Positions 3,240-8,390 of a DNA stretch of 64,000 bases are shown here, one piece after another. Each line of letters starts with the position of its first letter. Positions within the stretch are counted from its first letter, which is position 1. The notes beneath the pieces were generated by a model, which was not told the origin of the DNA, did not search any database, and saw only the letters and a program-made list of their open reading frames with translations. The DNA lies in assembly GCA_010093485.1 (NCBI GenBank), contig MU001509.1, positions 366,256 to 430,255 of the forward strand, given 5' to 3'. This stretch comes from Karstenula rhodostoma CBS 690.94 (Eukaryota; Ascomycota; Dothideomycetes; Pleosporales; Didymosphaeriaceae). The position numbers and the translations under genes were made by a program.

Positions 3240-4553
3240 ATGGCCGCAAAAAGCCCCTCCATCCGCGCCCTCTCGAGGTATCTCTTGCGTCCGCAAGCTG
3301 TCCCGCACGCGACATGCCGCCAACAACGCACTCCCAAACGGCACTCTTCTGCAGTAGCCGGAGCACGCCTCAACGGCCCTATTGAATATGACACCACGCC
3401 GCTGCTATACCACACTTCCAAAGCCGCTCTCACGAACCCGGAACTGCCTGAAGACGTACGCAAGGGCCAAACAAAGCGCATCAATCTGTATCAAGCCGTG
3501 AACGAGGCCCTCCGCCATGCTCTGCAATCAGACGAAAGAGTATTAGTGTTTGGCGAAGATGTGCAGTTTGGCGGTGTTTTCAGGGCCACCATGAACCTCG
3601 CGAGCGACTTCGGGACGGAACGCGTCTTCAACACGCCGCTGAGCGAGCAGGGTCTTGTCGGCTTTGCCATCGGTGCTGCCAGCGAGGGCATGAAGCCGGT
3701 CGCCGAGATCCAGTTTGCCGACTACGTCTACCCTGCCTTTGACCAGATTGTCAACGAGGCGGCCAAATACAGATACATGGCGGGAGCGACTCAAGTGCAT
3801 TGCGGAGGTCTGGTCGTCCGCATGCCGACCGGCGTGGTAGGACACGGTGGCCTGTGGGTGACTCGATATTCAGCATGACATGTAGAGGCTAACGAGTACC
3901 GTAGGTACCACTCTCAGTCCCCCGAAGCACTCTTTACCCACATTCCCGGCCTCCACGTTGTCATCCCTCGCTCGCCCACCCAAGCCAAAGGCCTCCTCCT
4001 CTCCGCCATCCGTACAAACGACCCCATCATCTTCATGGAGCCCAAGATTCTCTATCGCGCATCCATCGAACAAGTCCCCGTCGATCCGTTCTACCTCCCT
4101 CTTGACAAGGCGGAAATCCTGAAAACCGGCAAAGACATCACCATTGTCTCCTACGGCCAGCCATTGTACACTTGCTCAGCAGCGATAACAGCAGCAGAAA
4201 AAGACTTTGGGTGCAGCGTTGAGTTGATTGACCTGCGAACGATATACCCCTGGGATCGCGAGACCGTCCTCGACAGTGTAAAGAAGACCGGAAGGGCGAT
4301 TGTAGTCCACGAAAGCATGCAGAATGCGGGCGTTGGTGCTGAGGTGGCGGCCACGATCCAGGAGAAGGCCTTCTTGAGGTTAGAGGCACCGGTAAAGAGA
4401 GTAACAGGGTGGGCGACATTCACAGGCTTGATGTTCGAACCACTGATAGTGCCGGATGTCACGAGTGAGTATCTTCCCCGCGGAAAAATTTCGCTGGAAT
4501 GCTAACAGAGTGCAGGAGTTTACGACGCTATCAAAAAGACATTAGATTACTAG
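3240..4553 (+). CDS. BCKDHB: branched-chain 2-oxoacid dehydrogenase E1 component, beta subunit
   Basis: Three exons (3240-3853, 3905-4464, 4516-4553) give 403 residues. The first ~35 residues are basic and hydroxylated, as in a mitochondrial presequence. The transketolase pyrimidine-binding fold follows ([52 protein letters not shown]), then the E1-beta C-terminal domain ([44 protein letters not shown]). VGHGGL joined across intron 1 to YHSQSPEA matches BCKDHB rather than pyruvate dehydrogenase E1-beta. The enzyme, with E1-alpha, decarboxylates the 2-oxo acids of Leu, Ile and Val in the mitochondrial matrix. Both introns are 51 nt with GCTAAC branch sites; the last exon encodes only about 12 residues plus the stop. 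Confidence 0.95.
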
Positions 4554-4858
4554 ATATAAATTCAAAAGCTATAAAAACCAGGGTGCGGTCTCCAACCCGC
4601 TCACGAGATCCGCAACCTTGCCCACAATCAACTCCGTGAAGTTCCAACATAGCTTTCCAATCACCCTCCGCTTGAAATCCAAGACTAAAAAGACGTCCAG
4701 CTAGCCCCCATGTATTCGCATCATCTACGCTAGACCCCACAGCTCGGCACGAAGCGATGTACCCACCGCACACTCTAACCCCGTCCCCCGCCAGCTGCAC
4801 AAAATCCCACCAAAAACAACATGTCCGCCACCTTCCCCTAAAACACAAAAAAGAAAGC
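4554..4858. other. intergenic, 3' flanks and Pol III terminator
   Basis: No gene is seen. Near 4843-4856 the minus strand reads TTTCTTTTTT just beyond the tRNA-Phe 3' end, a standard Pol III termination signal. The rest is the 3' flank of the E1-beta gene. Confidence 0.6.
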
Positions 4859-4878
4859 TGTCGCTTCTGTGGATCGAA

Positions 4879-4933
4879 CTGTTACAATGTTAGACATTGG
4901 TCCAATGCCAGTATAGAGGTTGTTATCACTCAC
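4879..4933 (-). other. GT-AG, spliceosomal-like intron between T stem and T loop of tRNA-Phe
   Basis: 55 nt, starts GTGAGT, has a perfect fungal branch site TCTAAC about 12 nt before the terminal CAG. It splits CTGTG from TTCGATC. Because the intron ends in G, the DNA still reads GTTCGATCC, so a B-box-like sequence survives. Confidence 0.74.
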
Positions 4934-4939
4934 CACAGT

Positions 4940-4989
4940 CTAGTATATATTAGCGCGGATCCGCATTTGTGATTGATGGTTCAACTTAC
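4940..4989 (-). other. GT-AG, spliceosomal-like intron in tRNA-Phe variable loop
   Basis: 50 nt, starts GTAAGT, has GCTAAT about 12 nt before the terminal TAG. Length and signals match protein-gene introns nearby. Removing it joins AGGT to A and lets the T stem follow at the correct spacing. Confidence 0.72.
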
Positions 4990-4999
4990 ACCTCCAGAT

Positions 5000-5040
5000 G
5001 TACATTCGAATTGAACCAAAGTTTGCCGCTGAGCGGATTG
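5000..5040 (-). other. canonical tRNA intron of tRNA-Phe (position 37/38)
   Basis: 41 nt inserted directly after G37, the standard eukaryotic site cut by the tRNA splicing endonuclease. The intron contains TTC runs that can pair with the GAA anticodon, as required for the bulge-helix-bulge form. It does not have GT-AG ends. Confidence 0.8.
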
Positions 5041-5484
5041 CTTCAGTCTGGCGCTCTCCCAAGTGAGCTAAAGCGACTGTTGCTTGATGACTAAATTCTA
5101 AAAAGAGTGCACTATATACCAGACCAAAAAGCAGCGGGCTCGAGCCGCGGCACCTGTACGATTGCGGAGACGGGTGGGTCCCAGGTAAACGAACGGACTG
5201 GGCAAAGAGGATACCAAACAAAGCACTCACACACACTGATGTAAGACTACGCGATTATACTACCTACCTACCGCCGCTTCACACGCCCATCCATAGTCCC
5301 CCCTCCCCGCCATTTCCATGCGTATTCAAACCGCCCCACCGCCCTTCTCATCCCCATCCCACCATGCGCCTCACCGACCCACCTCAGCCCACCCCTTCTC
5401 CACAACGTGCTGTGCTCTACAGTGCGAGACAAGACAGCTACATAACCCCCTCTCCCACCCAACCGTTTCTATGGCAGCGCGCCT

Positions 5485-5585
5485 GGCTCAATGGTCTAGT
5501 GGTATGATTGTCGCTTCGGGATTTTGCGCCTGGATCCTTCGGATCTATATGTGACAGGCCCCGGGTTCGAATCCCGGTTGAGCCC
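5485..5585 (+). tRNA. tRNA-Pro (CGG) with one canonical intron
   Basis: Acceptor GGCTCAA (5485-5491) pairs with TTGAGCC (5578-5584), discriminator C. D arm contains the A-box-like TGGTCTAGTGG. The anticodon stem GTCGC (5510-5514) pairs with GTGAC (5551-5555) with one G-U. The loop gives anticodon CGG at 5517-5519. A 29-nt intron (about 5521-5549) lies after the base 3' of the anticodon. T arm CCGGG-TTCGAAT-CCCGG is intact. Seven Ts at 5589-5595 form a Pol III terminator. Confidence 0.95.
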
Positions 5586-7115
5586 GCGTTTTTTTGGTGG
5601 TGTGGTGGTGTGGGACTGTGGGGTGGTGTGTTTTTTCCTGTGTACTGACTGTATATACCCCAGTCCATCGCTCCGATCATTGTGAATGTAAGGCAGACCA
5701 AAAGCCACCCTGCCCAGCCCAATTCACCCACCAATCCCCACCACCCTCTCCCCCACAACCTCCGACCCCCCGCCCAACCCCCCCGATCTCCTCAACCCGG
5801 AACCCATACACATCCTCAAACCCCAGCGCCTCCCCATCTCCCCCAGACAGCCGTCACATAGTAAAACACACCCCGCCCGTCGCCCCAACCATTTCAACCA
5901 TCCGCACCTTCCAAAAGTCCGTTCCCAGACCGCTGCGTCTATACGAAGAGAACCTCGCTTCCAGCGCTTTCTGCGAGCGTGGGGTCAGCGTTGTGCTGAG
6001 CATGTACGCGGTCCAGGACGGGAGGCAGGGGGCGGCGTAGTGGGTGATGAGATTGGGGATGGGAATGGTGGAGTGGGGACCTAGAGCTGCGGACGAGGTG
6101 TAGGCGGTGATGGGGGCGGTGGCAAGGGTGAAGGTGTATGGTGAGGGTGGGAGTGATGATCGGGGCTGGGGTGTGTAGGTGTGTGTATGTGTGGGTATGG
6201 GTATGTGTGTAGATATATACGTGTATGGGTATGTATATATACAAGTATATATGTGTAGGTGTGTGCGTATAAGTTTAGGCAGGCACGAGGAGTATATATA
6301 GTAGGGCTATGGGGGAGTGTATGTGGAGAGAGATTGGGGAATCGGAGGGGATGTCGTGCGGGAACGCTCGGGTGGATTAGTGATGGTCAGCGCCGATCAC
6401 GGCCGCGGTAGCGGTATCGAAGGTTTGTTGGCATGCCATCTCTTACGATGACTTTAGGATGCTACAAAGTTATTCATTAGATGATAGACTATAAATTTAA
6501 ATGCAAATACCCCTTTATGCCCTTGCATTCGGTTCGTGAGATGAAGGTTTGCGCGCCGGTCCCTTCGCCCATCACAAGACAACTACTACCAACTTAGCAA
6601 CAACCTCCCTTCCAATTCTTTTGTTTCTCCCAGGTGCTGTTGCAATCTGTGTTATCTGTTTACGTTCATATGTGGGACCTGCAAGTCGACTAGAAGTACG
6701 CTACGTCCTTAACACAGGAGCGGTAAAACAGGAGGCGCTATAATCAAGGTTTGTTGAATATTAGCAGTCTGTGCTAGCTGCTTCTTGCTCAGACAAACCA
6801 GAAATAACAGGTTCAACGGTTGGCATTGCATTTTCCTTCCTTGACTAGACTACACGAACGGGACAGGTTTCCAATGCGAAAAACTTGCGAGCAATCTTTA
6901 CGGACACCACAAGACACCGTTTCATCTACTAATTTTCGTCCGCACTTCCGCTTCTCGAGCTAGCATTAAGGGCACAGATACGTAACCATTCTCAGCTAGA
7001 CTTTTGCCAGTGCACAGCTGACGTAAAAATAAATGTCGCCAGTACTCTCGAGGAACTCCTCTCCACTACACCGAGGTCAATGTATTTCTTCCACGGCAGA
7101 TTGCAAGCTGACTTA
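5586..7115. other. gene-poor intergenic stretch with GT-rich microsatellite
   Basis: No supported gene. Directly after the tRNA-Pro terminator is a TGG/GTG-rich run (about 5594-5635). About 6155-6265 is an imperfect TG/TATG microsatellite whose translations are meaningless His/Thr or Tyr/Ile repeats. The rest, to the prenyltransferase stop, shows nothing I recognise. Confidence 0.6.
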
Positions 7116-8390
7116 CTAAATCTTCCTCAACATTTCCACATAATTTTCCATCTGCGGCAGCATCTTATCCGCGTTTTTTCTTGTGGCGAAGGGCCTGCGC
7201 AATCGTCGCAGAACTTTCGCGTCGTTCTTGCAAAACGACGCAGGCGAGATGTACACCATGGGGGTCGTTGGCTTGCCCGCCTTAACGGTGAAGTAGAAAC
7301 CTGGACCCGCGCGCTCTACTTCAGATGGCAATTCCGCTGGTGCATCTCCAATGAAGATGTGCCACAAGTCTTTCACATCTGCAATCGCCTCTGCAGTGTA
7401 CATCGCCATATCGTATCTTCCCCCCAGCATGAGCGCATCCATAAGATACTCAACAGACGTGTTTGGTGCGCGCGTATATATTTTGATGCGCGACTGCTGG
7501 GGGGAAACCAGATCGAATGAGAAGATGCCAACGTCCATCTTCCACTTCGCTGCCACTTCGTGGAGATACTCCAGCATCGGCTCGCACCGCAGCGACGCGT
7601 ATTGCTCCGCAGGCAGCGAGCGGATCGCCCTCACAACAACATCGAGATTCGACACGCCGAGCTCTTGTGCCCGCAAACCAGGGAAAATGTACAGCTTGAT
7701 GATGGGCCCGTTTCGATCGATATCCCTCGTGACGAACGTGCCCGCGACGGGCGCAAGCTCGAAATGCAGTTTCTTGGGCATCTTCACGCGGCCCAGCTCG
7801 CTCGGCAGAACAGTGGCCGTGAAGTGGTTGTACCATTCCAGATCCAGACCTGACACCCAACCCTGGCTGTCCAAGTGCTTTATCCAAGCGTTGGTCTCAT
7901 TCCGATTAAAAGGATCGGCCTCCGTGCCAGCCATGGGCCCAATAGGCTCGAAGAACGTCCGGACCACGCCTTTGCCTTCGAGTCCCCACTCCCATGACAG
8001 GTCAAGTGGCGTACCGTCTGGTGCCTGCGGGCTCTTCCATCGCAGGTGCCCGTTCGCATCGGGCGTCGGGTCGAGCTCGGGGACGATTTGGATGGCGTAG
8101 AAGAGCAGCTCGTTGTACTGCTCTGCTTTGGAGTACCCGGCGTACTTGAGCAGCTCGGCTAGTTGGCTGCCGGTTTTGTCCCACCAGAATTGGTGTTCGG
8201 GCTTGCGGAAGTGGATGGTGGAGCTTATAATGTCGAAAGGCTGCTTGGTATCGGTACGGCCGGTTCTTGAGATAACTTGTGACGTGAGCACTTTTCGCTT
8301 GAGAGTGCTGATGGAACCGTTGCTGGTTTTTGTGAGATAGTTCACAGCGTGTTCAATCGAACTCTCGACCGAAACTGCACTTGGAGCCAT
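7116..8390 (-). CDS. DMATS-type aromatic prenyltransferase
   Basis: Single exon of 424 residues, normal for the dimethylallyltryptophan synthase (ABBA) family. Family landmarks: an N-terminal FWWDKTGSQLAELL block, the substrate-site block DGTPLDLSWEWG (126-136), and the alternating basic/Tyr diphosphate-shield strands such as KLHFELAP, IIKLYIFPG, RIKIYTRAP and GFYFTVKAGKP. These enzymes move a dimethylallyl group from DMAPP to tryptophan, tyrosine or related aromatics in secondary metabolism. In the indole enzymes a conserved Glu in the TP-E-SW block binds the indole NH; here this position appears to be Asp130, so the substrate may not be a plain indole (inference). No backbone NRPS or PKS gene lies within several kb on either side, so it is an orphan in this window. 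Confidence 0.9.
   Translation of the reverse strand: MAPSAVSVESSIEHAVNYLTKTSNGSISTLKRKVLTSQVISRTGRTDTKQPFDIISSTIHFRKPEHQFWWDKTGSQLAELLKYAGYSKAEQYNELLFYAIQIVPELDPTPDANGHLRWKSPQAPDGTPLDLSWEWGLEGKGVVRTFFEPIGPMAGTEADPFNRNETNAWIKHLDSQGWVSGLDLEWYNHFTATVLPSELGRVKMPKKLHFELAPVAGTFVTRDIDRNGPIIKLYIFPGLRAQELGVSNLDVVVRAIRSLPAEQYASLRCEPMLEYLHEVAAKWKMDVGIFSFDLVSPQQSRIKIYTRAPNTSVEYLMDALMLGGRYDMAMYTAEAIADVKDLWHIFIGDAPAELPSEVERAGPGFYFTVKAGKPTTPMVYISPASFCKNDAKVLRRLRRPFATRKNADKMLPQMENYVEMLRKI

Follow-up and report, generated by a model that had tools for sequence, protein, structure and literature searches.

The tRNA-Phe(GAA) gene examined here raises the question of how a tRNA can be made from a gene that seems to be interrupted by introns of the messenger RNA type. 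It lies in a 64,000-nucleotide stretch of the Karstenula rhodostoma CBS 690.94 genome, referred to below as the window, which is part of contig C18 of the 44.3-Mb, 29-contig genome that was searched. A sequence-only reading of the window had described the gene as carrying two spliceosomal-type introns besides its normal tRNA intron, and had suggested that its precursor may need both splicing machineries. The gene is on the minus strand, which that reading had left unstated, with its 5' end at 5077 and its 3' end (A73) at 4859; its parts, and the sites of the related inserts found elsewhere in the genome, are collected in Table 1.

Table 1. Features of the tRNA-Phe locus and of a protein gene in the window, and sites of GT-AG inserts in tRNA genes of the genome
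Feature	Window position	Strand	Position in tRNA	Remarks
tRNA-Phe(GAA) gene, 219 nt, four exons and three introns	4859..5077	minus		folds as a 73-nt cloverleaf once 41, 50 and 55 nt are taken out
tRNA-Phe exon 1, 37 nt, contains A box	5041..5077	minus	1-37	same in 4/4 tRNA-Phe genes
tRNA-Phe ordinary tRNA intron, 41 nt	5000..5040	minus	37/38	38-43 nt among the four Phe genes
tRNA-Phe exon 2, 10 nt	4990..4999	minus	38-47	
tRNA-Phe insert 1, spliceosomal-type, 50 nt	4940..4989	minus	47/48, variable loop	at the same site in 4/4 tRNA-Phe genes, cores diverged
tRNA-Phe exon 3, ACTGTG, 6 nt	4934..4939	minus	48-53	between both inserts
tRNA-Phe insert 2, spliceosomal-type, 55 nt	4879..4933	minus	53/54, T stem-loop border	in 3/4 tRNA-Phe genes
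tRNA-Phe exon 4, 20 nt	4859..4878	minus	54-73	
tRNA-Phe B-box-like GTTCGATCC	4871..4879	minus		first G is the final base of insert 2; from sequence
T6 run	4847..4852	minus		6 nt past A73 of tRNA-Phe, likely Pol III terminator
TATATA	5113..5118	minus		41 nt upstream of tRNA-Phe gene
Branched-chain keto-acid dehydrogenase beta gene, intron 1, 51 nt	3854..3904	plus		spliced protein aligns through the joint to PDB 1dtw_B
Branched-chain keto-acid dehydrogenase beta gene, intron 2, 51 nt	4465..4515	plus		spliced protein aligns through the joint to PDB 1dtw_B
Thr(CGT) insert			5/6	
Leu(CAG) inserts			10/11 and 18/19	
Glu(TTC) insert			13/14	
Pro(AGG), two inserts, and Pro(TGG), one			20/21	
Ala(CGC), two inserts			25/26	
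Initiator Met inserts			38/39 and 46/47	
Phe, four inserts			47/48	
Phe, three inserts, and His, three			53/54	
Gly(GCC), five inserts			60/61	

The division of the tRNA body into four blocks, as it had first been described, is borne out by the block coordinates and by ARAGORN. Joined, the exons give a tRNA of 73 nt (a length measured on the Phe-4 copy, whose exons are identical) in which, judged by eye, all four stems pair as had been claimed: acceptor 7/7, D 4/4, anticodon 5/5 and T 5/5. When the precursor was given to ARAGORN between short artificial flanks there was no call; after deletion of both GT-AG inserts the program returned tRNA-Phe(gaa) with a 41-nt intron, so that a search on insert-free sequence, the check named by the earlier reading, does yield the expected tRNA. 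The Rfam tRNA model gave no match to the gene, either across the whole window at the gathering level or in positions 4700-5700 with E up to 10. The spliced tRNA has C15 and A48 in all four copies, an unusual base pair for the 15-48 tertiary contact of tRNA, and this weighs against reading the inserts as introns of the spliceosomal kind.

The splice signals that had been ascribed to the two inserts are present in the sequence. Insert 1 starts with GTAAGT, has the branch site CGCTAAT with its A 10 nt from the end, and ends in CTAG; insert 2 starts with GTGAGT, has the branch site GTCTAAC with its A 11 nt from the end, and ends in ACAG. Their likeness to introns of nearby protein genes holds for the branched-chain keto-acid dehydrogenase beta gene, whose two introns start with GTGGGT and GTGAGT and have the branch sites GGCTAAC and TGCTAAC. 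Thirteen candidate coding introns of the window, picked by their signals and an open frame, are 48-83 nt long (median 56) with branch distances of 9-14 nt; two of them overlap, the reversed-sequence control gives 1, and the first dehydrogenase intron is the one checked against a homologue. In size and branch distance the tRNA inserts appear similar to these protein introns.

The single interrupted gene of the earlier reading proved to be one of many, since 26 ectopic GT-AG inserts were found in 23 of the 103 tRNA genes counted in the genome, in 10 isoacceptors and at 11 positions (numbered by hand). They interrupt the acceptor stem, the D arm, the anticodon arm, the variable loop and the T arm. 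The genes were gathered with the Rfam tRNA model (at least 61 matches, with 62 of 1177 candidates scored) and with B-box patterns, and the loci were then read; the pattern matches were taken among about 100 of the 260 listed for one pattern, and the counts are lower bounds. Several genes were chosen with splice signals in view. The 103 exclude one decayed locus (L064) and ten odd tRNA-like loci, as well as pattern matches unlike tRNA ends and a few tRNA-like ones, such as C15:1604878 and cluster members at C9:1.05 Mb.

Several tRNA-like loci have unusual structures. Seven of them (L096, L114, L115, L127, L136, L138 and L139, on C3, at 395-396 kb of C15, and at 1053 kb and 1557-1558 kb of C9), several of which are mutually close, have recognisable acceptor or T-arm ends with an over-long middle in place of the normal anticodon arm. 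L118 (C6:1020790-1021300) is a tRNA-Tyr-like gene followed by two tandem copies of its own 3' half, and L120 (C22:96640-97040) is one followed by a single tandem 3'-half copy, the stretch ending there. L049 has a degenerate second tRNA-Gly copy just upstream of an intact tRNA-Gly(GCC), upstream of G000:C6:746925. Within the window, a tRNA-Pro(CGG) gene with an ordinary intron lies on the plus strand at 5485-5585, about 400 bases from tRNA-Phe; it scores 46.2 bits against the Rfam tRNA model and was missed by the whole-genome Rfam search. The window also encodes a MAK5-like helicase, whose first 300 residues are 93% identical to a protein of Karstenula rhodostoma (Didymosphaeriaceae, Pleosporales, according to NCBI). 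On the minus strand at 7116-8390 it has a large open reading frame containing a tryptophan dimethylallyltransferase domain, a secondary-metabolism enzyme.

The 26 inserts share one anatomy. They are 49-67 nt long (median 51), begin with GTAAGT (12), GTGAGT (6), GTAGGT (3), GTACGT (2), GTAAGC (2) or GTAAGG (1), and end in CAG (15) or TAG (11), so that GT-AG borders with the extended 5' consensus GTRNG are found in 26/26. The branch pentamers are CTAAT (12), CTAAC (7), CTGAC (4), TTAAT (2) and CTAAG (1), and the branch A lies 9-12 nt from the 3' splice site in every insert. The fungal branch site has been given as RCTRAY, located 6-36 nt from the 3' splice site (PMC5832005, in excerpt); YTRAY fits 25 of the 26 inserts, the remaining one being CTAAG, and all the distances fall within that range. 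Of 2,000,000 intervals of 49-67 nt drawn at random from the window, 13 carry the combined signals, compared with 26/26 inserts; the criteria were set after the inserts had been viewed. All 11 insert positions differ from 37/38, the site one nucleotide 3' of the anticodon, the nearest being 38/39 in initiator tRNA-Met, and the separate 37/38 introns of the same genes do fit that site. In tRNA-His, GCGTTG of exon 1 might form an alternative anticodon stem with CAACGC within the insert, but CTGGG just ahead of the GT is the sole partner for CCCAG, and the 53/54 placement was therefore retained.

Because the tRNA inserts and the coding introns were both picked with splice signals in view, evidence that fixes the insert borders independently of these signals is the stronger. 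Insert-free siblings exist for initiator tRNA-Met, Pro(AGG), Pro(TGG), Thr(CGT) and Gly(GCC). The two interrupted initiator genes, which carry their inserts at different sites, each become identical over 72/72 bases to the intronless third initiator gene once joined. For Pro(AGG), Pro(TGG) and Thr(CGT), the common prefix with the insert-free sibling is 36-38 nt when joined, compared with 5-19 nt unjoined, and for Gly(GCC)-1 and -2, where the suffix side only was counted, the shared suffix grows from 13 nt unjoined to 38 and 35 nt joined. ARAGORN was run on the first 20 of the 23 genes; three Gly genes added later were joined. With inserts kept between artificial flanks, it gave the right isotype for 1/20, nothing for 12/20 and a wrong isotype for 7/20; with inserts removed, it gave the right isotype for 20/20. 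After removal it also placed a second intron of 7-43 nt starting at positions 36-39 in 18/20 genes, which is the usual tRNA intron, and it placed no second intron in the two joined initiator genes.

Alternatively, the tRNA-splicing endonuclease might cut the inserts as ectopic tRNA introns, a mode of removal proposed for the red alga Cyanidioschyzon merolae. There, tRNA-Ile(UAU) has introns at 12/13, 37/38 and 53/54, which is the same three-intron layout as in tRNA-Phe and includes the same 53/54 site (PMC9602550, in excerpt), and algal nucleomorph tRNA genes likewise have D- and T-arm introns besides those at 37/38, their excision having been confirmed by RT-PCR (PMC4090602, in excerpt). Bulge-helix-bulge motifs are thought critical in C. 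merolae (PMC4090602, in excerpt), where the processing mechanism is described as not known further (PMC9602550, in excerpt). At the ectopic sites examined here, a motif with two 3-nt bulges and a 4-bp helix has on average 1.44 of 4 central pairs (25 sites, the Thr acceptor site being too near the gene start), compared with 1.5 at random; all four pairs form at 1/25 ectopic sites and at 1/17 ordinary 37/38 introns, for which the mean is 2.41 (n = 17). The bulge-helix-bulge reading is thus unsupported by pairing, though the test is weak and does not dispose of every endonuclease. The missing motif is not decisive because many nucleomorph tRNA introns form no defined bulge-helix-bulge (PMC3978253, in excerpt). 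What this explanation leaves unaccounted for is the GT-AG borders and the branch-like site at a fixed distance in 26/26 inserts, which an endonuclease would not need. The insert lengths also resemble those of protein introns. The nucleomorph inserts of G. theta are 3-24 nt long (PMC4090602, in excerpt), in contrast to 49-67 nt here, and the excerpted accounts of the C. merolae and nucleomorph introns contain no mention of GT-AG or branch-site anatomy. We consider cutting by the endonuclease improbable. Self-splicing was rejected on length, since group I and group II introns have a catalytic core of some hundreds of nucleotides.

Spliceosomes usually encounter Pol II transcripts, which are their normal substrates, and the introns could therefore be spliced from Pol II read-through transcripts, with the Pol III product a by-product. 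In the window tRNA-Phe gene, however, the A box, the B-box-like sequence and the T run are all in place around the introns. These elements lie within the exons or beside them, so the straightforward assumption is that Pol III transcribes the unit as a whole. Inserts at 53/54 end in AG, and AG followed by TTCGA restores the B-box start AGTTCGATCC, so that an intron at this site should cost the promoter little; in tRNA-Phe, the sequence spanning the end of insert 2 would keep the Pol III B box. No T4 run occurs inside any of the 23 interrupted precursors, and each is followed by one at most 36 nt downstream, although some of the genes were found through that run. TTTT is absent from the 26 inserts, compared with 4.0 in shuffles (P 0.011), but this absence is not specific to tRNA inserts because 0/13 candidate coding introns of the window carry it either, and poly-T avoidance was dropped as proof of Pol III.

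A precedent for spliceosomal introns in such genes is provided by fungal U6 (PMC5832005, in excerpt), and the present genome has its own example. U6-1 (L091, G000:C3:1527927-1528030, plus strand) contains a GTGAGT...CTAAT...CAG intron with a B-box sequence inside it (GTTCGAGTC), and its inverted neighbour U6-2 (G000:C3:1528462-1528364, minus strand) has the exact empty site and an altered 5' end. The pair suggests that small RNA genes of this type can be handled by the spliceosome here. Splicing from Pol II read-through transcripts we hold to be very improbable.

B-box-like sequences also occur 27-84 nt downstream of certain genes in which the internal B box is disrupted or departs from the consensus (the loci compared were L102, L126, L144, L145, L146 and L049; L014, L057 and L060; L124 and L137). 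They were seen at 4/5 Gly(GCC) genes interrupted at 60/61 (2/3 without the two that had been found via that box), at 3/3 initiator Met genes and at both Val(AAC) genes looked at. Three Cys genes and one Thr gene whose internal box is off-consensus lack such a sequence, as does the Gly gene without the 60/61 insert. Among 53 genes with a strict internal box a downstream box was found at one, where it belongs to a neighbouring tRNA gene.

According to a 2014 review, short insertions in the D and T arms of eukaryotic tRNA genes, which mostly occur in a single gene among many synonymous ones, are supposed to mark pseudogenes, a rule with algal and nucleomorph exceptions (PMC4090602, in excerpt). 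Interrupted loci that are unused pseudogenes would fit this rule, and a normal set of intron-poor tRNA-Phe genes beside a silent, mutated one had been named as the outcome that would undo the earlier reading. It was looked for and not found. A query with the locus, and one with the 73-nt mature tRNA-Phe matched on bases 1-37, each found four places in the 44.3-Mb genome, the window gene and L002, L003 and L004 (Phe-4), and all of them bear introns; tRNA-His was found at three places, with a 53/54 insert in 3/3. No uninterrupted tRNA-Phe or tRNA-His was found in this first-look search of the genome, which a diverged copy could escape. The pseudogene explanation was rejected on this ground, and we find it scarcely credible. 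The copies are also not decayed: within the Phe, His and Gly sets the exons are identical over the bases compared (for tRNA-Phe, bases 1-37 and the final 35 bases of the joined tRNA in 4/4 copies), and the T4 pattern described above, found in 23/23 precursors (part of them located through the T run), likewise argues against disuse. Among initiator Met and Gly(GCC) genes found, 2/3 and 5/6 are interrupted.

The copies differ in their inserts. Phe-4 has an exact empty 53/54 site with the flanking bases directly joined, and together with the insert-free Met, Pro, Thr and Gly siblings it shows that presence and absence at the same site, a comparison proposed earlier between relatives, both occur among gene copies within this one genome. 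The cores of the Phe inserts, from the 5' splice site to the branch region, are 42-58% identical, compared with shuffled means of 48-49%, and the splice signals are kept, so that exons and splice signals are what appears conserved at the Phe site, and little besides. Two observations weigh against the spliceosomal reading. Cores are partly alike between copies of His (65-77%), Gly (45-86%) and Pro(AGG) (81%), compared with shuffled means of 46-55%, and the exons of the two Leu(CAG) genes differ from each other.

A mobile, introner-like origin was set aside, since most inserts at different sites are unlike each other. Among 299 pairs the greatest likeness was between Pro(AGG)-1 and Leu(CAG)-1 (z = 6.0), which is weak evidence because both are CA-rich, followed by Pro(AGG)-2 and Leu(CAG)-1 (z = 4.0) and a pair at 3.9. 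The likeness of the D-loop introns of Pro(AGG) to the 10/11 intron of Leu(CAG) (L123, L131 and L062) points to a possible movement of an intron between tRNA genes. Exact-pattern scans of viral contigs for relatives found nothing, and the single match in a prokaryote contig (L143) is a chance one in bacterial DNA, with no tRNA in the surrounding 8 kb. That the inserts are an artefact of assembly or contamination has a negligible chance, given 23 interrupted loci spread over 14 contigs whose sequences are mostly unlike and whose anatomy is common.

Taken together, the anatomy makes it very likely that the tRNA inserts are U2-type spliceosomal introns in nuclear Pol III tRNA genes, present besides the ordinary 37/38 introns and excised by the spliceosome ahead of the tRNA endonuclease. 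The suggestion that the tRNA-Phe precursor may need both machineries is supported by the gene copies, the empty sites and ARAGORN, with spliceosomal removal itself deduced from the signals; production of these tRNAs probably depends on the mRNA splicing machinery plus the usual tRNA-splicing enzymes. We infer from sequence that Pol III transcribes these genes, that the spliceosome removes the inserts and in which order the steps follow. On this basis, Pol III would transcribe the whole precursor from the A box and B box to the T-run terminator, and, still in the nucleus, the spliceosome would read the GT, branch-site and AG signals and release the ectopic introns as lariats. Folding of the D and T arms would have to wait until the GT-AG introns are gone, and the tRNA-splicing endonuclease, RNase P and tRNase Z would act afterwards, with the 37/38 intron leaving last. 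The endonuclease should act last because in many precursors a D or T arm cannot form properly earlier, and the tRNA body is what the enzyme is believed to measure from (PMC4090602, in excerpt); in C. merolae, too, the 37/38 intron is reported to be removed last (PMC9602550, in excerpt). In tRNA-Phe, the 47/48 and 53/54 introns would have to go successively because the 6-nt exon between them leaves no room for two spliceosomes, and so short an exon is sterically awkward, which weighs against the spliceosomal reading.

The proposed arrangement can be set beside several known ones. It resembles that of fungal U6 snRNA genes in having short GT-AG introns with a branch site inside a small RNA gene, U6 being a Pol III class gene. 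Spliceosomal signals are present in the tRNA inserts, and the A box, B box and T runs suggest the use of Pol III. U6, however, is a spliceosomal RNA and one gene family, whereas at least 10 tRNA isoacceptors and 11 positions are involved here, often together with a second intron kind. Fungal U3 snoRNA also has normal spliceosomal introns in a structured RNA (PMC5832005, in excerpt), but it is a single RNA with introns nearly all in its 5' stem-loop, and no tRNA. According to a 2017 paper, frequent interruption by an intron is known among small structured RNAs in U3 and U6 alone (PMC5832005, in excerpt). Ascomycete rDNA introns lie in structured non-coding RNA as well, and the title of one reference names a messenger RNA intron in nuclear 18S rDNA; these interrupt rRNA, a Pol I product, and not tRNA. 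Ordinary 37/38 introns, removed by the tRNA-splicing endonuclease, are present in many of the same genes, and the inserts differ from them in place, size and signals and presumably in machinery. Among the titles and abstract openings listed from an open-licence library, none concerned spliceosomal introns within nuclear tRNA genes. We know of no case of mRNA-type introns in a tRNA, while in another small RNA gene, U6, they are known.

A noncanonical-intron search is described in tRNAscan-SE 2.0 for archaea (in the excerpted account). Because that search is archaeal and ARAGORN was right for only 1/20 genes with inserts kept, similar genes may hide in other fungal genomes. The occurrence of copies with and without each intron makes intron gain in a structured RNA directly testable.

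If the introns are spliced as their anatomy says, two splicing machines act in order on one 219-nt transcript, and do so for essential tRNAs. We consider it likely that the spliceosome is an essential tRNA-processing machine in this lineage, that the introns are still undergoing gain and loss among tRNA gene copies, and that a downstream B box tends to replace the one broken by the Gly 60/61 intron. Because the Phe and His genes found, and most of the initiator Met and Gly(GCC) genes, would need the spliceosome before the endonuclease, tRNA supply would be tied to spliceosome activity, and translation would run short of specific tRNAs under splicing defects or splicing drugs.
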